Origin: Acidovorax sp. SUPP3334
Lineage (GTDB): Bacteria > Pseudomonadota > Gammaproteobacteria > Burkholderiales > Burkholderiaceae_C
Assembly (NCBI RefSeq): GCF_030159055.1
Contig: NZ_BQXQ01000032.1
Coordinates: forward strand, 1-64,000
DNA length: 64,000 nt
Direction: 5' to 3'
Below are positions 7,999-20,698 of the stretch, in pieces (positions within the stretch are counted from its first letter, which is position 1; each line of letters begins with the position of its first letter). The translations under genes and the position numbers were made by a program. The notes under the pieces were generated by a model. That model worked only from the letters and a program-made list of their open reading frames with translations, was not told the origin of the DNA and ran no database searches.

Positions 7999-10900
7999 AT
8001 GGGGCATGAGATCTTTCTTCTCGGCGGGGTCCACCTCCTCCTGATCGCGGTGCTGGCCCTGTTGCCCGGCGCCGAACTCCTGCAGCCATCCCGTCGCACG
8101 CGGGTGCGCGCCGGCCTCGCGGGCGGCGTGGCCGCCGTGCTGATCATGGTGTTTACCCAGGCGTTCGACCCCACGAACGCGGCCCTTCCCCACCCCACCA
8201 TCGCGGCCGTGTGTACGCTGATGTTCGGCCCCGTGGCGGGCGCGATCTCCGCCTTGCTCACCGTGCTGGGCTTTTGGCTGCTGGCCGCCGGGCCGCTGTC
8301 CACCGGGCTGGGGGTGATCGGCACGGTGTTCGCCGTGAGCTTGGCGTGGCGTGCCGTGCGCGTGCGCACCGGTTTGAACCTTTGGGTGGTGATCGTCGCC
8401 CTGGCCGCTTGCCTTCCGCCCTGCATGCTGTTCTGGCGCGAAGGGCCTGCCGCATTCTTCCCCGCGCAGGGTATGGAGGGCTTGGCGGGCCTGCTCGCCT
8501 GGCTGCAGCAGATGCCCTGGCGGTACTTCACGGGCTTTCTTATCCTGGGCGGGGGCACGCAGCTGCTGTGCAGCCGGGCCCATTCGCTGGAAACGCTGCG
8601 CCGCCAGGAGCAGGAACTGCTCATGGCCCTCGATGCCACGGGCGGCGGCCGCTGGGAGTGGGATGTGCCCGAGCGGCGCTTTTCGTACCGCGGCAGCTTC
8701 TACCAGGCCTTCGGTCTGGAAGACCGCGACACCCGCCGCGGTGCCGGCTCGGCGTCGCGGGATGCGAGCGACTGGCAGCGCTGGAACGAGCGCCGTCACC
8801 CCGACGACGCAGCCCGCCTGGCCACCTACCTGCAGCGCGCGATGGAGGGGCACGAAGACAGCTTCAACGCCGAGTTCCGCATGCAGGACATGGAGGGCCG
8901 CTGGCGCTGGGTGATCGCCCGGGGCCAGGTGGCAGAGCGCGATGCCCACGGCCGCCCGCTGCGCCTGGTGGGCATGGACCTGGACGTCACCTCCCTGCAC
9001 GAGATGCAGGAGGCGCTGCGCCTGTCGGAGATCAAATACACCACCATCTACCAGATGCTGCCCGACCCCGCCGGGGTGACGCGGCTGGCCGACGGCTGCT
9101 ACCTCGACGTGAACGAGGCCTTCACCGAACTGCTGGGCCACACCCGGGAAAATACCGTGGGCCGGACCTCGCTGGAGCTGGACATCTGGGCCTACCCCGA
9201 GCAGCGCGCGCAGATGGTGGCGATGCACCGGCGCGACGGCTACGTGGACCGCATGCCCATGGTGGCCCAGCGCGGCAACCGGCAGATTCCCGGCCTGATG
9301 TCGGCGCGGCCCGTGACGATGTCGGGCGAGGAGTGCATCGTCTTCGTGTTCCACGACATGACGGCCGAAGAGCGCAGCCGCGCCCAGCTCATGGACGCCA
9401 ACCGCCTGCTGCAACAGGCCGGTCGCATGGCCCGCATGGGTGCCTGGGAGCACATCGTCGGCGAGGGACTGGTGTACTGGTCCGATGTGTCGTACGGCAT
9501 TCATGGCCTGCCGCCGGATGCGCCACTGCCGCGCAACGATTACCTGGAGCGGTTCGTGGCACCGCCGTTTCGCGACATGCTGCGCGAGCGGTTCCGCCAG
9601 TGCATCGTCGATCGGGCCGAGTGGAGCATGGAGCTGCAGATCGTGCGGGCCGACGACGGGAGGCGCGTCTGGGTCAGCGCGAGCGCCGAGCCCATGCTGG
9701 AAAACGGCCAGGTCACCCGCGTGCGCGGCGTGATCCAGGACATCGACGAATCCCGGCGCGCCACCGAGCGGCTGAGCCAGTCCGAGGACCGCTTCGCCCG
9801 CGTGTTCCGACTCATGCCCTACCCCATGGGCCTGTCGCGCCGCGACGACGGCGCCTACATCGACGTCAACCCCGCCTGGGAGGCGATGCTGGGCATTCCC
9901 CGGGACGAGGCCATCGGCCGCACCGCCGTCGAGCTGGGCATCGTCACGCAACAAGAGCGCGAGGCGCTCATGAAGTCCGTGCAGGATCGCACTGCCATCA
10001 ACGGCGTGGAAATCACGATGCACACGCGCCACGACGGTTTGCGCACGGTGCTGCAGTCCATGCACGCCACCGAGATCGACGGCGTGCCGGCCTGGCTGTT
10101 CTCGGGGCATGACATCACCGAGCGCAAGCGCATGGAAGACCAGGTGCGCGAGCGCGAGGCGCTGCTGTCGCTCACCATCTCGGCCGCCTCCATCGGCCTG
10201 TGGGACTGGAACCTGCAGACCGGCACGCTCACTGGCGACGGCCGCTGGCGCGACCTGCAGGGCCTGCCACCCGCCGCGGGCGACCCCTCGCCCGTGCACT
10301 GGACCGCCGGCATGGCGCCCGCCGACATCGAGGCGGTCACCACCGAACTGGCACGCCACACCGGCCACCCCGCCACGCCGTTCGACGCCACCTGGCAGAT
10401 CGCGCTGCCCCAGGGGCCCGGCCGCTGGGTGCGCAACCTGGGCAAGATCGTGGACCACGACGAGACGGGCCGGCCGCAGCGCATGCTGGGCGTGGGCATC
10501 GACGTGAGCAGCCAGCACGTTCAGGAAGAGCTGCTGCAAAAGCTCGCCCATTTCGATGCGCTCACCGGCCTGCCCAACCGGGTGCTGCTGGCCACGCGGT
10601 TGCAGCAGGTCATGGCGCGGGCGCGTGAGCGGGGCCTGTTGCTGGGCGTGGCCTACCTCGACCTGGACGGCTTCAAGCCCGTGAACGACCGGCTCGGCCA
10701 CGACGCGGGCGACCGCCTGCTGGTGATCGTGGCCGGCCGCCTCACGCGGGCACTGCGCCCCGTGGACTGCGTGGCTCGGCTGGGCGGCGACGAATTCGTC
10801 ATCCTGCTGCCCGACCTGGCGACCCGCGCCGACGGCGAGCGCCTGCTGCGCCGGGTGATGGAAAGCGTGGCCGCGCCCTATACCCTGGGCACTGAGCGGG

Positions 10901-11865
10901 TAGCGGTGACGGTGACGGCCAGCGTGGGCTACACCCTCTACCCCGACGACGACGCGGACGCCGATGCGCTGCTGCGCCATGCCGACCAGGCCATGTACGC
11001 GGCCAAGCAGTCCGGGCGCAACCGCTTCCACGCCTTCGACGCCGCGCAGGAGCGCGCGCTGCAAAGCCACCGCGAACAGGGCGAGAAGGTGCGCGATGCC
11101 ATCGCGGCGGGCGAATTCGCCCTCTTCCTGCAACCCAAGGTGGACATGCGCCTGGGCACGGTCGTGGGCGCCGAGGCGCTGGCACGCTGGCACCACCCGC
11201 AGCGCGGCACCCTGTCGCCCGGCGCCTTCCTGCACCTCATGGACGGCACCGACCTGGAGACCGTCTTCGGCGAGTGGGTGGTGGACACGGCGCTGGACTG
11301 CATCGCCGCACTGCTGCGTGCCGGCCTGCGGCTACCGGTGAGCGTCAACATCTCGGCCCAGCACCTGCAGCGCGAAGGCTTTGCCGACTGGCTGGCCGCC
11401 CGGCTGGCGCAGCGGCCCGAAGTGCCCGCCGACCTGCTGGACATGGAGATCACCGAAAGCGCGGCGCTCTACGACATCGGCCACGTCGCGCTGCAGTTGC
11501 AGCAGTTGCGCGACCTGGGCGTCACCGTGTCGCTGGACGATTTCGGCACGGGGTACTCGTCGCTCACCTACCTGCGCCGCCTGCCCATGGACACGCTCAA
11601 GCTCGACCAGAGCTTCGTGCACGGGATGATGACCGACTCCGGCGACCTGGCCATCGTGCAGGGCGTGATCGGGCTGGCGCGCTCGTTCGGCTACTCCATC
11701 GTCGCCGAAGGCGTGGAAACCGTGGAACAAGGACAGATGCTGCTGCAGATGGGCTGCGCGCTGGCGCAGGGCTACTGCATCGCCCGGCCCATGCCGGCGA
11801 GCGAACTGCCGCAGTGGCTGGCGCAATGGCACGCGCCCGAAGGCTGGCAACCGCGCGGGCCTTGA
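7999..11865 (+). CDS. Membrane PAS-PAS-GGDEF-EAL protein (c-di-GMP turnover)
   Basis: A large protein of about 1288 residues. It has five or six N-terminal membrane helices (residues 1 to about 195), several consecutive PAS/PAC units (about 205-840), a GGDEF domain (FDALTGLPNR; RLGGDEFVILLPDL near residue 930) and an EAL domain (GAEALARWHHP near 1058, NISAQHL, DDFGTGYSSLTYLRR, KLDQSFV, VAEGVET). Both catalytic signatures look intact, as does the product-inhibition site RPVD five residues before GGDEF, so it could make and degrade c-di-GMP. ATG 7999 is used; an in-frame TTG at 7957 would add 14 residues without hydrophobic character. It is monocistronic as far as can be seen. The input signal is unknown; the membrane part resembles 5TM/MHYT-like sensor regions only loosely. 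Confidence 0.92.
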   Translation: MGHEIFLLGGVHLLLIAVLALLPGAELLQPSRRTRVRAGLAGGVAAVLIMVFTQAFDPTNAALPHPTIAAVCTLMFGPVAGAISALLTVLGFWLLAAGPLSTGLGVIGTVFAVSLAWRAVRVRTGLNLWVVIVALAACLPPCMLFWREGPAAFFPAQGMEGLAGLLAWLQQMPWRYFTGFLILGGGTQLLCSRAHSLETLRRQEQELLMALDATGGGRWEWDVPERRFSYRGSFYQAFGLEDRDTRRGAGSASRDASDWQRWNERRHPDDAARLATYLQRAMEGHEDSFNAEFRMQDMEGRWRWVIARGQVAERDAHGRPLRLVGMDLDVTSLHEMQEALRLSEIKYTTIYQMLPDPAGVTRLADGCYLDVNEAFTELLGHTRENTVGRTSLELDIWAYPEQRAQMVAMHRRDGYVDRMPMVAQRGNRQIPGLMSARPVTMSGEECIVFVFHDMTAEERSRAQLMDANRLLQQAGRMARMGAWEHIVGEGLVYWSDVSYGIHGLPPDAPLPRNDYLERFVAPPFRDMLRERFRQCIVDRAEWSMELQIVRADDGRRVWVSASAEPMLENGQVTRVRGVIQDIDESRRATERLSQSEDRFARVFRLMPYPMGLSRRDDGAYIDVNPAWEAMLGIPRDEAIGRTAVELGIVTQQEREALMKSVQDRTAINGVEITMHTRHDGLRTVLQSMHATEIDGVPAWLFSGHDITERKRMEDQVREREALLSLTISAASIGLWDWNLQTGTLTGDGRWRDLQGLPPAAGDPSPVHWTAGMAPADIEAVTTELARHTGHPATPFDATWQIALPQGPGRWVRNLGKIVDHDETGRPQRMLGVGIDVSSQHVQEELLQKLAHFDALTGLPNRVLLATRLQQVMARARERGLLLGVAYLDLDGFKPVNDRLGHDAGDRLLVIVAGRLTRALRPVDCVARLGGDEFVILLPDLATRADGERLLRRVMESVAAPYTLGTERVAVTVTASVGYTLYPDDDADADALLRHADQAMYAAKQSGRNRFHAFDAAQERALQSHREQGEKVRDAIAAGEFALFLQPKVDMRLGTVVGAEALARWHHPQRGTLSPGAFLHLMDGTDLETVFGEWVVDTALDCIAALLRAGLRLPVSVNISAQHLQREGFADWLAARLAQRPEVPADLLDMEITESAALYDIGHVALQLQQLRDLGVTVSLDDFGTGYSSLTYLRRLPMDTLKLDQSFVHGMMTDSGDLAIVQGVIGLARSFGYSIVAEGVETVEQGQMLLQMGCALAQGYCIARPMPASELPQWLAQWHAPEGWQPRGP

Positions 11866-11950
11866 CGGCAGGCCGGTCGCTCCGGAAACCGGACACCGTG
11901 GCACCGAACGGCGGCGCGCAGCGCACTGTGCGCTGCGTTGAGGCTTGGGG

Positions 11951-12006
11951 CAAAAAAGGCCTCCAGCGCAATATCCACTAAGGCATATTGCTATATAAAT
12001 AATAGC
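11951..12006 (-). repeat. Dispersed palindrome-led repeat, intergenic copy (reverse)
   Basis: Reading the minus strand gives GCTATTATTTATATAGC, then ATGCCTTAGT, ATTGCGCTGGAGGCC and a T-run, matching the block order of the other copies. It lies about 85 bases after the GGDEF-EAL stop and could form an RNA hairpin through the GCTAT/ATAGC arms. Confidence 0.75.
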
Positions 12007-12141
12007 ATCGGCGCATCGCCTGGTGACGATTCCAGCCGGGTCACCCGCCTGTCCCACCGCCGGGAGCCGACAACGCGCCCCGTTCAACGCCCCTTTTGCT
12101 CGCGCAGCACTGCAAGCGGGCCGCGCCCCACCGTTGCCATT

Positions 12142-12216
12142 TCATTCTGAAAAACAAGAATGATTTAAATACATATAAGGCGATATTGATTTATATCATA
12201 AACATATCGTCGATAT
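12142..12216. promoter_or_regulatory. AT-rich promoter region with three inverted repeats upstream of the 12514-16737 cluster
   Basis: Bases 12140-12250 are strikingly AT-rich against a GC-rich background. Three inverted repeats lie close together: TCATTCT (12142-12148) with AGAATGA (12157-12163); GATAT (12182-12186) with ATATC (12193-12197); and ATATCG-T-CGATAT (12204-12216), a perfect 13-base dyad. Such clustered dyads upstream of an operon are typical operator sites, but no regulator gene is adjacent. The 5' untranslated region to the first ATG (12514) would be about 250-300 bases, long enough for further control. Function is inferred only. Confidence 0.45.
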
Positions 12217-12513
12217 ATTAAATACTCATTCTCCGAATAAAATATTTTGGACCTCAACTGGGATAAAGTATGCCGGGCGGTTCATTTAAAACCAGCCTGA
12301 GTGCGGTTTTAAATGCCGTTGATTTGAATGCCATTAACACGGGGAGATTTTTTTGGCAGTGCATGCATGAATGCACCCCTGTCCATAAAAAGGTTATCAA
12401 GGCATCACTGATGCCGCAACTGCCAGGTTTCACCTGTGCTCTACGGCGCGATGTCAATGCGGATTCCGCCCCGGCATTTCGCACCAAAAATAACTCTGAG
12501 GTATGAAGACGGT
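12217..12513 (+). other. Long AT-rich leader before the dehydrogenase gene
   Basis: About 300 bases without a convincing gene. Two near-repeats, TTCATTTAAAACC and GCGGTTTTAAATGCCG, sit at 12280-12320, and a GCATGCATGAATGCA dyad near 12362 could fold. A 78-residue frame (12270-12506) has no recognisable product and a poor start. The region may be an untranslated leader; I see no known riboswitch consensus. Confidence 0.35.
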
Positions 12514-13551
12514 ATGAACGCAATTGGTTTGATCGATCAGCAAAAACTGGGTTTGATCACCCACCACGACATCGATGCGTTGGCAGCCGATGGCGTCGAA
12601 ATCGACATTGTCCTGTCCGGCATCTGCGGAACCGACCTGGCGGTCCTGTCCGGCCGGGAGGAAGGGAAAATCGGCGTCATTCGCGGCCACGAAGCGGTCG
12701 GCGTGATCGCCAAGGTCGGCACAGGCGTCAAACACCTGCGCACGGGAATGCGGGTCGTGGTGGACCCCAACGAATATTGCGGAACCTGCGAATTCTGCGC
12801 TTGCGGCCAAACCCACCTGTGCAATGGCGGCGCGAATGCGGCGCTGAATATCGCGGGGGTCAACAAGCATGGCACGTTTGCCGAACGCTTCGTTACCCGC
12901 GAGCGGTTCGTCCATCCCCTGCCGGACGACATGAGCTGGGAAACCGGCGTATTGATCGAACCCGTCGCCTGCATTCTGAACAACATCGATCAGGCCATGA
13001 TTCAGGCAGGCGATCGGGTTTTGCTGCTCGGCTCAGGGCCCATGAGCCTGGTCGCGCAACTGCTTTTGCGCGCGATGGGCGTCAATACCCTCGCCACCGA
13101 CGTAAACCCGCACCGGATCGAATTCGGCCGCTCGCTCGGATTGGAGGTCGTGCATCCCGACGAACTCGATGCGCGCATGCAGCAGGGCCATGTGGATGCT
13201 GCCATCGACACCGTTGGCAATCAGCTGGGAACGGCCGCCCGGCATATTCGCCGGGGCGGAAAAATCGTCCTTTTCGGATTCAACGGCAATTATCAATACC
13301 CGCTGCCCGTCAAGCATTTTCTCGTCAACGCCATCAGCATTATTTCCGCCGGTGAATACAACCAGCATTTTCCCCGTGCACTGCGCATGGCAAAAATGCT
13401 GCCCGAGCTGGGTCGCCTGGTAACGCACCGCTACGGACTGGAGGCTTACGCCACGGCATTCGACGGACTGCTGAACGACCCGTCCGTGCCCACGATCAAG
13501 GGCGTTTTCACGCCGAACCCGCAATACCTGCAAACCTCGGCCAACGATTAA
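12514..13551 (+). CDS. Zinc-dependent medium-chain alcohol/polyol dehydrogenase
   Basis: A 345-residue MDR-family NAD(P)-dependent dehydrogenase. It has the catalytic zinc ligands in SGICGTDLAVL and RGHEAVG (Cys, then His-Glu), the structural zinc cluster of four Cys in EYCGTCEFCACGQTHLC, and the cofactor-binding glycine motif LLLGSGPMSLVAQLL followed by an Asp (ATDVNPHR) that suggests NAD preference. It is closest in style to threonine, sorbitol or butanediol dehydrogenases. ATG 12514 is preferred to an in-frame upstream start because homology starts at MNAIGLIDQQ. It is the first gene of a tightly spaced five-gene set and would oxidise or reduce a secondary alcohol in that pathway. Codon use is visibly less GC-rich than in the flanks. 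Confidence 0.85.
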   Translation: MNAIGLIDQQKLGLITHHDIDALAADGVEIDIVLSGICGTDLAVLSGREEGKIGVIRGHEAVGVIAKVGTGVKHLRTGMRVVVDPNEYCGTCEFCACGQTHLCNGGANAALNIAGVNKHGTFAERFVTRERFVHPLPDDMSWETGVLIEPVACILNNIDQAMIQAGDRVLLLGSGPMSLVAQLLLRAMGVNTLATDVNPHRIEFGRSLGLEVVHPDELDARMQQGHVDAAIDTVGNQLGTAARHIRRGGKIVLFGFNGNYQYPLPVKHFLVNAISIISAGEYNQHFPRALRMAKMLPELGRLVTHRYGLEAYATAFDGLLNDPSVPTIKGVFTPNPQYLQTSAND

Positions 13552-13570
13552 AAAAACAAAGGGAGTTATC

Positions 13571-14248
13571 GTGAAAGTCACTGTATTCAGCCAGATTTCC
13601 ATCGACGGCAAATTGACGTTGGGGGGCAATGGGGCATCGAGCAAGGCGCTGTTCCAGCGCTTCAACGATGACGACATGCGCTTCATCCATAAATTTCGCG
13701 GCGAGGTGGACGCCATCATGGTCGGCCGCAAAACCATCGTCACCGACGACCCCCAGTTGACCAACCGTTACGAGGCCGGGCGCAACCCCATCCGCATCAT
13801 TCCGACGACATCGCTGGACTTCCCCGTGTCCGCCAAGATCCTGAGTTCGCCCGAAGAAACCATCATCGCCACGACGGAGCAGGCGCGTGACCACGAAATG
13901 GTGGAGCAAATTCGCGCCCAAGGAAAAGAAGTGATTTTCGTCGGCGCATCGCAGGTGGATTTCAAGCTGCTTTTCCCCTTGCTCGAAGCTCGCGGAATCA
14001 AGCACATCATGGTCGAGGGCGGTGGCCAGTTGAACTGGCAGATTTTCGATCTCGATCTGGTGGACGAAATCATTCTCATGCAATTGCCCATCATCATCGG
14101 CGGCTCGGAAACGACCACGCTGACCGACGGCGAAGGTTATCGAAACATCGAAATGACCAAGTCATTCAAGCTGCATGCCTTCGATGCGCGCTCCAACTAC
14201 AACCTCATGCATTTCAAGCGCGAGCTGGCATCGCAAAGGACGCATTGA
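13571..14248 (+). CDS. RibD C-terminal-domain reductase (dihydrofolate reductase-like fold)
   Basis: A stand-alone 225-residue RibD_C-family reductase. In riboflavin synthesis this fold reduces a phosphoribosylamino side chain to ribitylamino with NADPH. Visible marks are the start KVTVFSQISIDGKLT, DAIMVGRKTIVTDDPQLTNR and the nucleotide-binding end segment HIMVEGGGQLNWQIFDLDLVDE. No deaminase domain is attached. It lies 19 bases downstream of the dehydrogenase and overlaps the HAD gene by one base (TGATG), so the three are translationally linked. A ribosylated or ribose-derived substrate is the reasonable guess, but the true substrate is unknown. Confidence 0.85.
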   Translation: MKVTVFSQISIDGKLTLGGNGASSKALFQRFNDDDMRFIHKFRGEVDAIMVGRKTIVTDDPQLTNRYEAGRNPIRIIPTTSLDFPVSAKILSSPEETIIATTEQARDHEMVEQIRAQGKEVIFVGASQVDFKLLFPLLEARGIKHIMVEGGGQLNWQIFDLDLVDEIILMQLPIIIGGSETTTLTDGEGYRNIEMTKSFKLHAFDARSNYNLMHFKRELASQRTH

Positions 14249-14901
14249 TGCCGGAAATCCGCGCTGTTATTTTCGACATGGACGGGGTACTGATCGACAG
14301 CGAACCCCTTTACATGGAGCAGGAAAGGCTTTCCTACGCCCGCTACGGCGTGACGCTCGACACAGCAGGGCTGTCACGTTTCGTGGGAACCACCCAGCGG
14401 TACATGTGGAGCACCATCAAGGCGGAGCATGGCCTGGCCGAACCGTTGGATTTTTTGATGGCACAGCACCAAAAGCAGGTGGTTCAGGCCATGGGCAATG
14501 CCCCTCTTTCAGCCATGCCCGGAGTGCCGGATTTTCTCGGCACGTTGAAAGAAGCGGAAATACCGTGCGCCGTGGCCTCGTCTTCTCCCGCTGAACTGGT
14601 GGGGGTGATTTTGCAGAAAACCGAACTGCGGCCTTTTTTCGATCATGTGGTGTGTGGAACGGACGTCAAAAACAGCAAGCCCGATCCCGAAATCTTTCTT
14701 CTGGCAGCCGAGAGGCTGGGCGTCGCTCCCCACGAATGTGCGGTGATCGAAGATTCGAGCCACGGCGTGGCCGCTGCCAAAGCCGCGGGCATGTTTTGCA
14801 TCGGGTTCTTCAATCCCCATTCGGGAATACAAAATTTGAGCGCGGCGGATCTGTGTGCGCGCCACCACAACGAAATCGCGAAATGGTTTCTTGAGCAATG
14901 A
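14248..14901 (+). CDS. HAD-family phosphatase (beta-phosphoglucomutase-like)
   Basis: A 217-residue haloacid dehalogenase-superfamily hydrolase with all four motifs: FDMDGVLIDSEP (nucleophile Asp and acid Asp), Ser in VASSSPAEL, Lys in NSKPDPEIF and the acidic pair in VIEDSSHGVAAAKAAG. The helical cap between motif I and II is of the sugar-phosphatase and beta-phosphoglucomutase kind. It probably removes phosphate from (or moves it on) a small sugar phosphate. Its ATG overlaps the stop of the RibD-like gene, and its own stop overlaps the next ATG. Pairing a RibD-type reductase with a HAD phosphatase recalls the two consecutive steps in riboflavin synthesis. Confidence 0.87.
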   Translation: MPEIRAVIFDMDGVLIDSEPLYMEQERLSYARYGVTLDTAGLSRFVGTTQRYMWSTIKAEHGLAEPLDFLMAQHQKQVVQAMGNAPLSAMPGVPDFLGTLKEAEIPCAVASSSPAELVGVILQKTELRPFFDHVVCGTDVKNSKPDPEIFLLAAERLGVAPHECAVIEDSSHGVAAAKAAGMFCIGFFNPHSGIQNLSAADLCARHHNEIAKWFLEQ

Positions 14902-15506
14902 CAATGAAAAAATTCAACATCGCGGATTTGAAATGGATCAATCAGCCGGCGTCATCTTCCATCACCGAACGGGAAATCGTCATTCGCACCGCCCCGGATA
15001 CGGATTTTTGGCAGGGCACCTATTACGGGCTGGAATATGACAACGCCCCCGCGCTGGTTCTTTCCAGCGAGGAAACATTCTGGACCTTGAAAGCCAAGGT
15101 CGCCTTCGACTCCAAAGTGCACTTCGACCAATGCGGTTTGTTCATCTATCAGGACAAAAACAATTGGATGAAGAGCGGCATCGAATACCAGAGCAACGGC
15201 TATCAGCAATTGTTCGCCGTCGTGACGAATCATGGGTTTTCAGATTGGTCGATGGCCAATTTCGACCGAACCACGCAGACCATGCATTACCGGCTCAGCC
15301 GCCGGGGCAGCGATTTTCTGCTTGAAAACTCCGTCGATGGAAACCGCTTCAACATGATGCGCATGTTCCATTTGTTCGAAGCGCAAGGCGCCGTTCGATT
15401 CGGGTTCTTCGCCAGCAGCCCGGGCGACTCGTCGTTCGACGCGCATTTCTCGGACATCGAGTGGACGGAATGCCTGTGGCAAGAGCACGGTTCCAACCGC
15501 TTCTAG
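14898..15506 (+). CDS. DUF1349-family protein
   Basis: A 202-residue cytoplasmic protein of the DUF1349 family (COG3506, concanavalin A-like jelly-roll fold, named for 'regulation of enolase' in yeast). Typical features are aromatic-rich beta strands such as DFWQGTYYGLEYDNAPAL, GLFIYQDKNNWMKSGIEY and RFGFFASSP. Members bind carbohydrates or act as small-molecule isomerases or hydrolases in some structures, but no activity is firmly assigned. The start ATG overlaps the HAD stop (ATGACA); a second ATG six bases later is possible. No signal peptide. In this cluster it may bind or process the same sugar-like metabolite. Confidence 0.8.
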   Translation: MTMKKFNIADLKWINQPASSSITEREIVIRTAPDTDFWQGTYYGLEYDNAPALVLSSEETFWTLKAKVAFDSKVHFDQCGLFIYQDKNNWMKSGIEYQSNGYQQLFAVVTNHGFSDWSMANFDRTTQTMHYRLSRRGSDFLLENSVDGNRFNMMRMFHLFEAQGAVRFGFFASSPGDSSFDAHFSDIEWTECLWQEHGSNRF

Positions 15507-15543
15507 GACATAAGCCATATCCCTACCCATATCCATATCCACA

Positions 15544-16737
15544 ATGAAAACTTCAGTCGATCAGAACCGCCGCGCGCTTCACGCCTGCTACGCGGCCATG
15601 ATGTGCTTGGCCATCGCCCTGAACTTTCTGCCGGTGTATCTGACCACGTTCAGCGACACCTTCGGAAACCAGGGCGGGCTGACTGCGGAGCAGCTGGGGC
15701 GCATCCCGGCCATCATGTTCCTCAGCTTCATCATTGCCATCCTGGTGACCGGGCCTCTGGCGGACCGGGGCGATGCCAAGCGGATCATTCTTTTCGGGCT
15801 CGTCACCACCACGGCCGGCCTGGTGTTGGTCGGTTTTTCCCCGTCCTATGCCTTTTTGCTGTTTGCGGTCGCCGTGATGGGGTTCGGTGCGGGCGTGCTG
15901 GACATGATCCTCAGTCCCATCGTGGTCGCACTCCAGCCCGACCGGCGCAGCGCCGCCATGAATTGGCTGCATGCGTTTTTCTGCGTCGGGGCGGTGGGTG
16001 CCGTGCTGATCGCCAGCATCGGCCTGAAATGGGACGTGTCCTGGCGCATGGTTGCCCTGGGCATCACGATCGCGCCGATCGTCACCTTTGTGCTGTTTCT
16101 CGGATTGAAGCTGCCGCCCCTGATCCAGGAAGACGCGCAACGGGAATCGATGCCCCAACTGATCAGGCAGCCCTACTTCATCGCGTGCCTGATCGCCATC
16201 TTTCTCGGGGGCGCCACGGAAACGGGGCTGTCGCAATGGCTGCCCACCTATGCCGAACAGGGCCTGGGGTATTCGAAGGAAGTGGGTGGTTTCGCCCTTG
16301 CAGGGTTTTCCGTCGGAATGGCGCTCGGCAGGATGGCCGCGGCCCTGCTGCATGAGCGCATCGCGCCGATCTCCCTGATGCTGGGCTGCTGTGCCGTGAC
16401 CATCGGCCTTTTCTTCGTCATCAGCTTTCCGCCGAGCCCGGCCGTGGCCATCGCCGCCAGCATTGCCGCCGGGTTTTCGGGCAGTTGCCTGTGGCCCACG
16501 ATGCTGGCCATCACGGCGGACGCCTACCCTCGTGGTGGGGCAACCATGTTCGGCGTGCTGACCGCTTTCGGCAATGCCGGATGCAGCCTGATCCCCTGGC
16601 TGGTGGGGATCATCATCGAATACTCTGAAATCCACATCGGGTTGCTGGCCGTCGCGCTTTGCCCGGCGGGCATGATCGGCTTGCTCTTGTGGATGTCCAG
16701 ACGGTCACCCAGGCAAGCACCGGCCCTGGCGCATTAG
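15544..16737 (+). CDS. MFS transporter (sugar/metabolite permease)
   Basis: A 397-residue major facilitator with twelve predicted helices. It has the loop 2-3 signature as GPLADRGDAKRIILFG and a central cytoplasmic loop with PLIQEDAQRESMPQL. The arrangement resembles fucose-permease-type sugar MFS members (GGATETGLSQWLPTY in helix 7, LWPTMLAITADAYP in helix 10). It is the last gene of the five-gene cluster, 37 bases after the DUF1349 gene, and would import the substrate or export the product. A GC hairpin lies 31 bases after the stop. Direction of transport cannot be told. Confidence 0.87.
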   Translation: MKTSVDQNRRALHACYAAMMCLAIALNFLPVYLTTFSDTFGNQGGLTAEQLGRIPAIMFLSFIIAILVTGPLADRGDAKRIILFGLVTTTAGLVLVGFSPSYAFLLFAVAVMGFGAGVLDMILSPIVVALQPDRRSAAMNWLHAFFCVGAVGAVLIASIGLKWDVSWRMVALGITIAPIVTFVLFLGLKLPPLIQEDAQRESMPQLIRQPYFIACLIAIFLGGATETGLSQWLPTYAEQGLGYSKEVGGFALAGFSVGMALGRMAAALLHERIAPISLMLGCCAVTIGLFFVISFPPSPAVAIAASIAAGFSGSCLWPTMLAITADAYPRGGATMFGVLTAFGNAGCSLIPWLVGIIIEYSEIHIGLLAVALCPAGMIGLLLWMSRRSPRQAPALAH

Positions 16738-16767
16738 CGCAAAAACGCAAAAGCCGGTTTTCCTCCC

Positions 16768-16788
16768 GCCACCGCCAGGTGCGGTGGC
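16768..16788. terminator. Hairpin between convergent MFS and prpE genes
   Basis: GCCACCGC and GCGGTGGC form a perfect 8-bp stem with a CAGGT loop, midway between two convergent stop codons (16737 and 16825). It could act in both directions. The T-run expected of an intrinsic terminator is weak (interrupted T-runs follow on the minus strand). Confidence 0.5.
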
Positions 16789-16824
16789 TCCCGGTGACCT
16801 CTCATTGAATGGCGAATCGGTGCA

Positions 16825-18759
16825 TCAGCCGACCAGTTCCTTCACCTGCTGCAGTGCGGCCGGGTCTTCCATCGTGGTCAGGTCGCCCGGGTCGCGCCGC
16901 TCGGCCACGGCCTGCAGGGCGCGGCGCAGCAGCTTGCCGCTGCGCGTCTTGGGCAGCGCCGCCACGAAGTACACCCGCGCCGGGCGCGCCACGGCGCCCA
17001 GGCGCTGCGCCACCTGCTGCATGACCTCGCCTTCCAGCGCCAGGCGTGCCGCCTCGTCGGTCAGCACCGCTGCATCGCGCACCACGGCGAAGGCCATGGC
17101 GACCTGGCCCTTGAGCGCGTCGGCCACGCCCACCACCGCCACCTCGGCGATCTGCGGGTGGCCGGCGATGCTTTCTTCGATCTCGCGCGTGCCCAGGCGG
17201 TGGCCGGCCACGTTGATCACGTCGTCGGTGCGGCCCAGGATGAAGTAGTAGCCGTCCGCATCGCGGATGCCCCAGTCGAAGGTGCTGTAGCGCATCGGCC
17301 CGGGCAGGCTCTGCCAGTAGGTCTGCACGAAGCGGTCGTCATCGCGCCACACCGTCTGCAGGCAGCCGGGCGGCAGCGGCCCTTCGATGGCGAGCACGCC
17401 CTTCTGGTGGGGCTCGGTGAGCTCTTCGCCCGTCACCTCATCGACCAGCTTGACGTCGTAGCCGTACATCGCGCGGCCCGGGCTGCCCAGGCGCGCGGGC
17501 TGCGGCTCCACGCCGCGGGCCAGGGTGAGGATGGGCCACCCCGTTTCGGTCTGCCAATAGTTGTCGATCACCGGCACGCCCAGCGCATCGGCGATCCACT
17601 CGGCCGTGGGCGCATCCAGCGGCTCGCCGGCCAGCCACAGGCCCTGCAGGCTCGACACGTCGTGCCGGCGCAGAAAAGAGGCGTCCTGTTTCTTCAGCAC
17701 CCGCACCGCCGTGGGCGCCGAGAACATGTGCGTGACGCGGTACTTTTCCACCAGGCCCCACCACACGCCCGCATCCGGCCGCGTGGGAAGGCCCTCGTAC
17801 ACCAGCGTGGCCATGCCGGCGATGAGCGGGCCATAGACGATGTAGCTGTGGCCCACCACCCAGCCGATGTCGCTGGTGGCGAAGAAAACGCCCGGGCTGG
17901 CAGGGGCGCCTTCGGCCTTTTCACCGCCCTCTTCTTCGGCGCCCACGCCGAAGATGTGCCGCATGCTGGCCGCCAGCGCCACCGCATAGCCGCCCGTGTC
18001 GCGCTGCACGCCCTTGGGTTTGCCGGTGGTGCCGCTGGTGTACAGCGTGTAGCTGGGGTGGGTGGCGTCCACCCATTCGCAAGGCACGCTGGCCTGCCGG
18101 TGCTCTTCGCGCAACGCGGCCCAGTCGTGGTCGCGGCCCGGTTGCAGCGCCATGGGCGCCAGGCCACGGTCCACCAGCAGCACGGCCGCTGGCTGGTGGC
18201 GCGACTGGGCGATGGCATCGTCCAGCAGCGGCTTGTAGGGAACGACCTTGCCGCCGCGCGAGCCCGCATCGGCGCTCACGATGGCCACGGGCTCGGCATC
18301 GTCGATGCGCGAGGCCAGCGAGGCGGCCGCAAAGCCGCCGAACACCACCGAATGCAGCGCGCCGATGCGCGTGCAAGCCAGCATGGCGAACACGGCCTCG
18401 GCAATCATCGGCATGTAGATCAGCACCCGGTCGCCCTGCCCCACGCCGATCGCGCGCAGCACGGCGGCCATGCGCTGTACCTCGGCATGCAGCTCGGCGA
18501 AGGTATAGGTGCGCTCGGTGTTCGTCTCGGTGGACACCGCGATCAGCGCCGGCTGGCTGCCCCTTTCGGCCAGGTGCCGGTCCACGGCGTTGTGGCACAG
18601 GCTGGTGGTGCCCCCCGCGAACCAACGCGTGAAGGGCGGGCGGCTGTTGTCGCAAATCTGCGGCGGCGGCGTGTGCCAGTCGATCAGGCGGGCCTGCTCG
18701 GCCCAGAAAGCATCACGGTCTTCGAGGGACCGGCGGTGAAAGTCGGCGTAGCGCGGCAT
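16825..18759 (-). CDS. prpE: Propionate--CoA ligase / acetyl-CoA synthetase family
   Basis: A 644-residue AMP-forming acyl-CoA synthetase. Motifs are YTSGTTGKPKGVQ (ATP loop, near residue 240), GWVVGHSYIVYGPL, NYWQTETGWPI, the hinge region DDVINVAGHRLGTREIE and the catalytic C-terminal Lys in KTRSGKLLRR. The GHSYIVYGPL segment and overall length favour propionyl-CoA synthetase over acetyl-CoA synthetase. ATG 18759 is preceded by GGAGACAAGCC (good ribosome binding site); the frame extends upstream but without homology. It feeds propionate into the methylcitrate cycle; no prpBCD genes are nearby in this window. Confidence 0.88.
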   Translation of the reverse strand: MPRYADFHRRSLEDRDAFWAEQARLIDWHTPPPQICDNSRPPFTRWFAGGTTSLCHNAVDRHLAERGSQPALIAVSTETNTERTYTFAELHAEVQRMAAVLRAIGVGQGDRVLIYMPMIAEAVFAMLACTRIGALHSVVFGGFAAASLASRIDDAEPVAIVSADAGSRGGKVVPYKPLLDDAIAQSRHQPAAVLLVDRGLAPMALQPGRDHDWAALREEHRQASVPCEWVDATHPSYTLYTSGTTGKPKGVQRDTGGYAVALAASMRHIFGVGAEEEGGEKAEGAPASPGVFFATSDIGWVVGHSYIVYGPLIAGMATLVYEGLPTRPDAGVWWGLVEKYRVTHMFSAPTAVRVLKKQDASFLRRHDVSSLQGLWLAGEPLDAPTAEWIADALGVPVIDNYWQTETGWPILTLARGVEPQPARLGSPGRAMYGYDVKLVDEVTGEELTEPHQKGVLAIEGPLPPGCLQTVWRDDDRFVQTYWQSLPGPMRYSTFDWGIRDADGYYFILGRTDDVINVAGHRLGTREIEESIAGHPQIAEVAVVGVADALKGQVAMAFAVVRDAAVLTDEAARLALEGEVMQQVAQRLGAVARPARVYFVAALPKTRSGKLLRRALQAVAERRDPGDLTTMEDPAALQQVKELVG

Positions 18760-19066
18760 GGCTTGTCTCCTTGATCGTTCTCGTGTCAGGACGGACCATT
18801 CTGCCAACAGATGAACGGACGGCATTCGTTGCCCCGCCAAACCGGCCTGTGCGGTCCGCCGATTTCCGCCAGCACAGGCCAAGGGGACAGCGGGTTCCGG
18901 ATGACCGAATGGTGGCAACACGGCAAATTCCGCTCCACGAAAGTGCTCGCTTGTCACAGACGCCCCGTTCTGGAGCAGGGTCCGCGTACACTTTGAAACA
19001 TCGGGAGGCTATTTCCAGGCCGCCCGCAGCCCCCGTCCCTCTGGCTCTTGTCCTGGAAGTCCCTTC
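18760..19066. other. Divergent intergenic region prpE / chemoreceptor
   Basis: About 307 bases separating two divergent genes, so it must hold both promoters. I see no strong dyad. The chemoreceptor has TACACTTTGAAACATCGGG about 70 bases upstream of its ATG, without a convincing sigma-28 match. Confidence 0.4.
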
Positions 19067-20698
19067 ATGACCCCTACCCACTTCACCATCGGGCGCCGTC
19101 TGGCGCTGGTCCTTGGCACCATCCTGGTGCTTTTCCTGATCAGTTGCCTGTATGGCATTTTTCAGTTGCGCGCCGTCACCCAAGAGATGAACGTGATGCT
19201 CAGCAGGTCGCTCGCGACCGAACGGGCGGCCAGCGACTGGTATCGCAACATCACGAACGGCGCCCAGCGCGTGGCGGCCATCGCCAAGAGCAGCGACCCG
19301 TCCCTGGCGGACTTCTTTGCAGCGACCGCTGCTGAATCGAGCAAGCAGTCGTCCGCGCTGCAGCAACAGATCGAAAAATTGCTGGACAGCGATGCCGATC
19401 GCGCGCTGTTTGCGCAGATCGGCGAGCACCGCAAAGCCTATCTCACGACCCGCGATGAAGTGACCAAGCTCAAGAAGGAAGGCGACCCCGAGGCGGTCGC
19501 GCGCGCTTTCACGCAGCGGTTTGAGCCCGCATCCATCACCTTCCAGCAGACCATCAGCAAGATGGTGGACCTGCAGCGCAGCGAACTGGACGCGGCTGGC
19601 GAACGCATTCGCGCAGCGAGCCAGGCCGCCACCGGCTTGCTCACCGCCCTGTGCGTGGGCTCGCTGCTGCTGGCCGCCTTCCTGGCCTGGCGCCTGGCCT
19701 TGAGCATCACGCGCCCGCTGGCCGAGGCTCGCCAAGTGGCCGACCAAATCGCCGCCATGGACCTGACCGGAAAGGACCACGGCCGCCACGCCGGTGACGA
19801 AACCGGAATGCTGCTGGGCGCCCTGGCCTCCATGCGCGGCGCGCTGGAAGGCTCGCTGATGGAAGTGCGCAACGTGGCCGACTCCATCGCCACGGCCACG
19901 CGCGAGATCGCCACGGGCAACGCCGACCTGAGCGCGCGCACCGAGCAGACCGCCAGCAATCTGCAGGAAACCGCCAGCTCCATGGAGGAGCTGACCGCCA
20001 CCGTGCGCCAGTCGGCCGACTCCGCCGCCACGGCCAACAAACTGGCCAGCTCGGCCGCCGAGGTGGCCGCGCGCGGCGGACTGGTGGTGACCCAGGTCGT
20101 CTCCACCATGGACGAAATCAACCAGAGCTCGCGCAAGATCAGCGACATCATCGGCGTGATCGACGGCATCGCCTTTCAGACCAACATCCTGGCGCTGAAC
20201 GCGGCGGTCGAAGCCGCCCGCGCCGGTGAACAGGGCCGCGGCTTCGCCGTGGTGGCGAGCGAAGTGCGCAGCCTGGCCGGCCGCTCGGCCGAAGCCGCCA
20301 AGGAGATCAAGGCGCTCATCGGCAACTCGGTCAAAAAGGTGGAGGCCGGCTCGCGCCTGGTGCAGGACGCGGGCACGACCATGGAAGAGATCGTGAGCAG
20401 CGTGCAGCGCGTGAGCGACATCATCGGCGAGATCACTGCGGCCACCTCCGAGCAGTCGGACGGAATCCGCCAGGTGAACACCGCCGTCAACCAGCTCGAC
20501 CAGATGACCCAGCAGAACGCGGCGCTGGTCGAAGAATCGGCCGCAGCGGCCGAAAGCCTGAACGAGCAGGCCAGCCGTCTGGCCGCGACGGTGGCGCAGT
20601 TCCGGCTCAATGCCATGGGCAGTGGCGGTGGCGGTGCGGGCCTGGCGCGCGGAGCGCTGGGCGCGCCGTCGGGGATGGGCGTGCCACGGCTTCAATGA
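19067..20698 (+). CDS. Methyl-accepting chemotaxis protein
   Basis: A 543-residue transmembrane chemoreceptor. Helix 1 lies at residues about 10-33 and helix 2 at about 188-210, enclosing a periplasmic four-helix-bundle ligand domain of about 150 residues. A HAMP segment ([16 protein letters not shown]) and the cytoplasmic signalling coiled coil follow, with the conserved hairpin tip [19 protein letters not shown] and [19 protein letters not shown]. The C-terminal CheR/CheB-tethering pentapeptide is absent, and the tail is Gly-rich instead. It stands alone. The periplasmic domain does not reveal the ligand. Confidence 0.93.

Follow-up and report, generated by a model that had tools for sequence, protein, structure and literature searches.

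The five-gene block and its insertion

The window analysed here is a 64,000-nucleotide stretch of DNA from Acidovorax sp. SUPP3334 (contig NZ_BQXQ01000032.1, positions 1 to 64,000), and our subject is a block of five genes within it that includes a divergent relative of the riboflavin enzyme RibD. The five open frames lie on the plus strand at 12514-16737, and all are intact by frame listing and Pfam. An earlier note on this DNA had named five genes of these families here, and coordinates, strand and Pfam all agree. The span it gave covers the five genes and omits an AT-rich leader at 11866-12513 that belongs to the same insertion. The features are:

12514..13551, plus strand: Zn-dependent medium-chain dehydrogenase (ADH) of the sorbitol/ketose-reductase type, probably NAD-linked (Pfam ADH_N and ADH_zinc_N)
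13571..14248, plus strand: stand-alone RibD_C-type reductase of a divergent subfamily (SSKxLF loop, 4-residue insertion), GTG start (Pfam RibD_C)
14248..14901, plus strand: putative HAD subfamily IA phosphatase, beta-phosphoglucomutase/sugar-phosphatase-like (Pfam HAD, relatives' starts)
14898..15506, plus strand: DUF1349 protein of a concanavalin-like beta-sandwich family (Pfam DUF1349)
15544..16737, plus strand: MFS permease, accessory member of the unit (Pfam MFS_1)
11866..12513, plus strand: AT-rich leader, presumed promoter region, inside the insertion (limits from flank homology)
16738..16824, no strand: insertion's right edge (homology to the host's relatives restarts at 16825)

As the earlier note had described, the genes overlap or nearly so: the RibD-HAD and HAD-DUF1349 frame ends overlap, and gaps of 19 bp and 37 bp separate ADH from RibD and DUF1349 from MFS, respectively. 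The ADH start codon (ATG 12514) is common to all 12 loci that we aligned. For the HAD gene the more likely start is ATG 14248, which overlaps the RibD stop and is where relatives start (the frame listing had TTG 14245), and for DUF1349 it is ATG 14904, where relatives begin, rather than the listed 14898. Guanine-plus-cytosine (GC) content is 0.53-0.63 across the five genes compared to 0.67-0.70 in the three host genes measured, in keeping with the lower GC noted before; at third positions the values are 0.67-0.82 and 0.87-0.91.

All three same-genus genomes searched lack the unit, and the flanking genes adjoin each other in all three. Homology to these genomes ends at window positions 11799-11857 and restarts at 16825-16834, with ~100-490 bp lying between in those genomes; therefore ~4.9 kb has been inserted, the AT-rich leader included. 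These empty sites, together with the same gene order in Pseudomonas, bear out the earlier suggestion that the genes were acquired as a unit. At the right edge lies the end (16825) of a minus-strand host gene that was named by eye as acyl-CoA-synthetase-like. A DNA-level search found the unit once in its own genome.

No tRNA gene was found in the whole window, the insertion edges share only short matches at a chance-like level, and inspection of the 10500-19500 frames by eye, without a Pfam scan of the flanking ones, showed no mobility gene. To this extent the marks of cargo in an integrative and conjugative element (ICE) or transposon (integrase, transposase, tRNA target, terminal repeats at the edges) were not seen in the window. 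At the empty site of one same-genus genome (G190, L042), a short spacer with inverted-repeat ends was seen by eye at the cassette position. No Rfam family was detected in 11500-17200 at E<=1, so the leader holds no known flavin mononucleotide (FMN) riboswitch, and alignment of the leader to Pseudomonas showed no conserved block apart from the start codon region.

Distribution and mobility

In samples of the family (299 genomes, E<=1e-40), the class (369 genomes, E<=1e-40) and the phylum (398 genomes, profile search, E<=1e-45), the RibD-like protein was found in the window's own genome only. Six loci were confirmed in a scan of contigs from 84,980 species, and every one is from Pseudomonas (P. 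syringae pv. cilantro, P. californiensis, P. helleri, P. lundensis, P. tremae and P. lini), with RibD identity to the window of 77-88% in the best segment. Nine of 398 Pseudomonas genomes sampled carry the protein, four of them shared with the 84,980-species scan. Our detailed comparison covers 12 loci: the window, L002-L007 and L023-L027.

The dehydrogenase, RibD, HAD and DUF1349 genes stand in the same order in 12/12 loci. The MFS gene is adjacent to the unit in nine, a contig break intervenes in one, and two have no MFS gene beside the unit. Thus four members of the five-family set proposed earlier are constant, while the MFS gene is missing beside two units; the neighbourhood comparison that the earlier note had suggested shows the gene set to be conserved in Pseudomonas, so that the outcome named there as a refutation, a set not kept in other genomes, did not occur. 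In the truncated P. lundensis locus (L005) the contig ends past DUF1349, and an MFS relative begins on another contig, ~160 bp from its end. Of 314 Pseudomonas genomes, six encode the DUF1349 protein, and each of these is also RibD-positive. Furthermore, the identity matrices computed for each of the five genes are correlated with one another (r 0.865-0.99 for the 10 gene pairs), which fits genes that travel as a group, with a contribution from shared species history.

We compared nonsynonymous and synonymous change (dN/dS) in 27 gene-by-pair comparisons, nine of which were saturated at synonymous sites. Seventeen of the 18 computable values lie at 0.035-0.213, so that most of them indicate purifying selection. 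A search of 72,556 plasmid records found no match to the DNA of the unit, and the plasmid-borne protein relatives of the RibD-like protein all have <60% identity (best 35%). A single scan found no viral carriage of the unit, and E. coli genomes gave no DNA match to the DUF1349 gene, the only gene tried.

Pseudomonas genomes average ~0.6 GC; the nine Pseudomonas loci measured are also low, at 0.43-0.58 per gene. The unit lies in several different genomic contexts in Pseudomonas. In P. californiensis (L003), the stretch from queC/tRNA-Lys to the unit holds a tyrosine integrase and a TraI_2 relaxase, and a TraG_N gene is found on the far side of the unit. In P. tremae (L006), the stretch from clpB/tRNA-Lys to the unit holds integrase and TraI_2/TraI_2_C genes. 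For PsICE elements, attachment sites in tRNA-Lys have been described close to queC (att-2) and to clpB (att-1) (available part of PMC10945833). The position of integrase and relaxase genes beside the unit at the queC and clpB tRNA-Lys sites suggests that in L003 and L006 it is very probably conjugative-element cargo, at two attachment sites. In this it resembles PsICE cargo of the P. syringae complex, of which Tn6212 is an example, although no ICE genes adjoin the unit in the Acidovorax window, and the main text of the PsICE paper, as far as it was available, mentions neither RibD nor DUF1349 (PMC10945833). Tn6212 itself was considered as the carrier and was unsupported. The five-gene block seems to be exchanged among Pseudomonas species and at least one bacterium of another genus.

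It should also be noted that the integrase beside the unit in P. tremae (L006:2901-4354) reads as two frames and is a single frame in L003, while the TraI-type relaxase of P. californiensis (L003:4355-6284) reads as two and is a single frame in L006.

The encoded proteins

The RibD-like protein (225 residues) consists of a RibD_C domain only (146 bits against a Pfam cut-off of 24.1) and lacks the N-terminal deaminase domain. Among curated models, that of the archaeal reductase (TIGR01508) scores highest, with 166.2 bits, under its cut-off of 186.45, and the best Protein Data Bank (PDB) chain is Methanocaldococcus jannaschii 2azn. For comparison we assembled 31 ordinary RibD sequences from BLAST-picked frames, namely the 30 best-scoring loci (58/60 genomes matched, >100 matches) and the host's own RibD, a set in which low-scoring RibD_C relatives are not represented. 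Residues were mapped through the host RibD, which reproduced all the Acinetobacter baumannii active-site residues described below, with their spacing, over the range 156 to 211.

In A. baumannii RibD, the phosphate is held by Arg188 and Arg211, and in one subunit by Arg181 as well; Trp174 pairs with Arg181 and would lie stacked against the pyrimidine, and Thr176 faces an amino group of the pyrimidine. The conserved part of the active site also includes Lys156, Ser172, Asp204 and Glu290 (available part of PMC3668577). Yeast Rib7 needs Asp83 and Glu180, taken here as equivalents of Asp204 and Glu290, and the Lys position, taken here as that of Lys156, is tied to C2 selection and is Thr in yeast (available part of PMC3631187). 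The catalytic and phosphate-binding side of this site is conserved in the unit. Ser172, Arg188, Asp204 and Arg211 are kept as S23, R43, D59 and R66 in all 12 unit proteins, as is E149-G150-G151, which matches yeast Glu180-Gly-Gly, so that the catalytic Asp and Glu (D59, E149) and the phosphate-binding Arg pair (R43, R66) of the RibD_C superfamily are present throughout.

Four residues near the pyrimidine are replaced. Lys156, Trp174, Thr176 and Arg181, all kept in 31/31 ordinary RibDs, correspond to F6, K25, F31 and M36 in 12/12 unit proteins, and an SSKxLF loop with a 4-residue insertion is found in 12/12 unit proteins and 0/31 ordinary RibDs. At the same four positions two haloarchaeal reductases have N/N, A/T, S/S and F/F, a Streptomyces relative has S, R, S and F, and an Ilyobacter RibD has K, W, T and R. 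On these alignments the Trp-Arg pair and the Lys are features of bacterial RibD. The Thr176 position is Thr or Ser in 35/35 sequences outside the unit and a Rhizobium relative, and Phe in the unit; that relative (35% identity) has the SSKxLF motif too, with Tyr at 176 and Arg181 retained. A full-length RibD (368 residues) and a GTP cyclohydrolase II match are present in the host genome, and therefore the unit is not needed for vitamin synthesis.

In the dehydrogenase, Cys38, His59, Glu60, Glu149, four structural-zinc Cys and Asp196 are invariant in 12/12 loci, giving the catalytic and structural zinc ligands and Rossmann motif of a zinc medium-chain dehydrogenase in every case. An Asp after the Rossmann motif usually means NAD use, and with Asp196 in that place the enzyme is probably NAD-linked. 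Its best PDB chain is 1e3j, a ketose reductase, followed by chains that include alcohol, L-arabinitol and sorbitol dehydrogenases. The HAD protein has DxD, Lys145 and the acidic motif IV Glu169-Asp170 of subfamily IA phosphatases in 12/12 loci, and its best PDB chain is 3kbb, the phosphorylated-carbohydrate phosphatase TM_1254. It scores 113.8 bits with the beta-phosphoglucomutase model TIGR01990 (cut-off 189.4) and is under the cut-off of every equivalog model among the matches listed (25/37 families). It is a putative phosphatase of the sugar-phosphate type, and may instead be a mutase.

The DUF1349 protein (PF07081) scores 202 bits against a gathering cut-off of 32.4. By sequence its closest PDB chains are 3mep and 3o12 (yeast YJL217W), both deposited as uncharacterised. 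An AlphaFold model (mean predicted local distance difference test score, pLDDT, 49.7) is poor; it still matched 3mep and 3o12, adding little to the sequence match. Around four DUF1349 relatives of 44-47% identity no RibD is annotated, in a gene table that is incomplete and where the Vibrio record is unannotated. The Cetobacterium relative has a YjjG-type nucleotidase, itself a HAD enzyme, ~3.6 kb away on the other strand; the Pseudanabaena relative has an MFS gene and an alcohol dehydrogenase close by, and the Enterococcus relative has neither. Yeast YJL217W is Ree1, a regulator of enolase. Francisella RibD binds enolase through its deaminase domain (available part of PMC12742849), a domain absent from the unit, and the parallel with DUF1349 may be a coincidence. 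For the MFS protein, the best NCBIfam model is TsgA, at 77 bits against a cut-off of 221, which leaves its earlier description as sugar-like unproven.

Proposed pathway and alternatives

The unit is thus a gene set with intact frames and catalytic residues, inserted and mobile, under selection, and with members that co-occur. We tentatively propose, with somewhat less than even confidence, that it is a horizontally mobile metabolic cassette that reduces, dephosphorylates, oxidises and exports a ribose-bearing compound whose aglycone is probably not the riboflavin pyrimidine. The RibD-like enzyme would use NADPH to open and reduce the ribosyl part of an N-(5-phosphoribosyl) compound, probably the phosphoribosyl-amine of another base, giving a ribityl phosphate. 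The HAD enzyme would then take off the phosphate, and the NAD-linked sorbitol-dehydrogenase-like enzyme would oxidise one ribityl hydroxyl to a ketone, so that the three steps together would form a polyol pathway on a nucleotide-like precursor. The DUF1349 protein may bind or process the sugar part, and the MFS protein, where present, may export the product. Each of these reactions, their order and the direction of transport is predicted from sequence; ribosyl phosphate reduction, dephosphorylation and ribityl oxidation would be the simplest order that uses all three enzymes. Consistent with this proposal, the dehydrogenase is nearest to polyol/ketose dehydrogenases and the HAD protein to sugar-phosphate phosphatases. 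The altered substrate side, chiefly the loop insertion and the Phe at both 156 and 176, speaks for a different aglycone. The earlier note had drawn a parallel to riboflavin synthesis. Reduction and dephosphorylation of a ribosyl phosphate is still the most economical assignment, but the parallel is weakened by the four pyrimidine-side positions replaced in 12/12 proteins and by the full-length RibD and GTP cyclohydrolase II match of the host.

Several observations weigh against our proposal. The 12 loci amount to about six lineages and are not 12 independent cases. The MFS gene is absent next to the unit in L007 (P. lini) and L023, and the whole P. lini genome has no MFS match at E<=1e-60. One dN/dS value, for RibD between L003 and L006, is 1.45, from very few changes. 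The placement of K25 and F31 rests on an alignment gap, F6 and M36 being anchored without one, and the AlphaFold model of the RibD-like protein (mean pLDDT 45.9) is too poor to use. Since Arg181 touches phosphate in one A. baumannii subunit (available part of PMC3668577), its loss is not purely a base-side change. Finally, the two haloarchaeal reductases also lack Lys156, Trp174 and Arg181, though such enzymes use the riboflavin intermediate, and the unit differs from them only in its loop insertion and in having Phe at both 156 and 176.

A side branch of riboflavin synthesis is therefore a serious rival, possible though doubtful in our judgement, given that the Trp-Arg pair is missing from archaeal and fungal enzymes too. 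The unit would use the GTP cyclohydrolase II product (2,5-diamino-6-ribosylamino-pyrimidinone 5'-phosphate), reduce it without deamination as archaea and fungi do, dephosphorylate it and oxidise the ribityl chain, whose C2' ketone could close on the 5-amino group to give a dihydropterin. The archaeal/fungal 2,5-diamino-6-ribosylamino-4(3H)-pyrimidinone 5'-phosphate reductase (2azn, yeast Rib7) is likewise a stand-alone RibD_C protein with E-G-G and DDPxL motifs and the Arg188 position, and it supplies both the top curated model (TIGR01508, 166 bits) and the top solved structure. Its lack of three of the four positions (Lys156, Trp174, Arg181), shared with the unit, moves slight weight from our proposal to the side branch. 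On a Rhizobium plasmid, a 35%-identical relative with the SSKxLF loop belongs to a row of genes, all on one strand, that includes a member of the GTP cyclohydrolase II family (last gap ~0.5 kb), and toxoflavin-type pathways have been proposed to divert the GTP cyclohydrolase II product (available part of PMC9911603). However, the unit protein does not reach the TIGR01508 cut-off, it has the SSKxLF loop with its insertion, and the unit holds no GTP cyclohydrolase by Pfam. At the C2-selecting position it has Phe, compared to Lys in 31/31 bacterial sequences, Asn in the two haloarchaeal ones and Thr in yeast (available part of PMC3631187), and at 176 it has Phe where a Thr, or Ser in the haloarchaeal enzymes, would face the pyrimidine amino group.

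A role in taking up a sugar, sugar-alcohol or nucleoside-like compound from outside and then degrading or detoxifying it is, in our view, unlikely. The MFS protein would import, the dehydrogenase and reductase interconvert, the phosphatase trim and DUF1349 bind. An MFS gene that ends the operon, a carbohydrate-type dehydrogenase and a DUF1349 protein from a lectin-like fold family would suit such a role, and PsICE cargo can be advantageous (available part of PMC10945833). Yet kinase, isomerase and regulator are all absent inside the unit, nearby regulators differ among loci (by eye; an AraC type was confirmed in L027), the only gene found missing is the MFS gene, and a phosphatase opposes the phosphorylation usually needed for sugar breakdown. 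That the unit is a spare riboflavin step backing up host RibD is scarcely credible. Some bacteria use HAD enzymes to dephosphorylate a riboflavin intermediate, and the protein does belong to the RibD_C family; against this stand the missing deaminase domain, the lack of an FMN riboswitch, the full-length host RibD of 368 residues, the replaced substrate-side positions and four partner genes without a known riboflavin role. Compared to bacterial bifunctional RibD (TIGR00326), the unit protein shares the reductase fold family, the catalytic Asp and Glu positions and the two phosphate-binding Arg, but not the deaminase domain or the S-x-W-I-T motif, and four positions are replaced. In agreement with the earlier note, Pfam finds neither deaminase nor synthase in the unit.

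The toxoflavin/pseudoiodinine clusters (psdABCDEFG of P. mosselii) offer another Pseudomonas RibD-type gene outside riboflavin synthesis, but psdABCDEFG carries GTP cyclohydrolase, methyltransferase, WD-40 and sulphatase-modifying-factor proteins (available part of PMC9911603), none of which is in the unit, and gene content rules out membership. A literature search found no described pathway with this five-gene set, in agreement with the earlier note, which knew of none; papers that mention DUF1349, judged by title and opening lines of the abstract, do not concern this set. The unit is a conserved mobile combination of familiar folds and a distinct reductase subfamily, without an assigned product.

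If the substrate is not a riboflavin intermediate, then a reductase group filed by Pfam and NCBIfam under riboflavin families does something else, and a re-aimed reductase sits in a transferable cassette on conjugative elements of plant-associated Pseudomonas. In PsICE elements, 70% of cargo genes have no predicted function (available part of PMC10945833). Identifying the product would assign a function to such cargo DNA, and would also probe how a handful of altered residues and an insertion in a loop can redirect a phosphoribosyl-reducing scaffold. A very unlikely extension of our proposal is that the product mimics a phosphoribosyl intermediate of primary metabolism and is exported as an antimetabolite of tryptophan (or purine or histidine) synthesis. 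N-(5-phosphoribosyl)anthranilate would fit an aromatic pocket (F6, F31) with K25, and its reduced ribityl form would resemble reduced 1-(2-carboxyphenylamino)-1-deoxyribulose 5-phosphate (CdRP). Reduced CdRP is an inhibitor of indole-glycerol-phosphate synthase. If this were true, conjugative elements would be spreading a self-contained antimetabolite cassette, a small weapon or signal of a new kind.

Two other gene rows were also observed. On Rhizobium leguminosarum plasmid CP050552 (L030:7998-11919), a row of genes on one strand encodes the SSKxLF-bearing RibD-like protein, an iron-containing redox enzyme (Haem_oxygenas_2), a Rieske protein and a GTP_CH_N/GTP cyclohydrolase II protein that scores above the PRK07198 cut-off, and looks like another uncharacterised pathway. 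This type of GTP cyclohydrolase is linked to uracil breakdown; a literature search for such a cyclohydrolase-uracil (URC1) link found none. In Pseudomonas, a second gene group lies beside the unit at L024:501-5959, L026:13023-18428 and L027:13224-18663, and encodes a membrane protein, a radical SAM enzyme, a Cys/Met-type pyridoxal-phosphate (PLP) enzyme, a PLP aminotransferase and a LysE exporter. In L025 only the LysE gene matches this group at high identity, the radical SAM match being 43 residues long and two others unmatched, while the radical SAM enzyme of L027 scores over the AmmeMemoRadiSam cut-off (292 against 220 bits).

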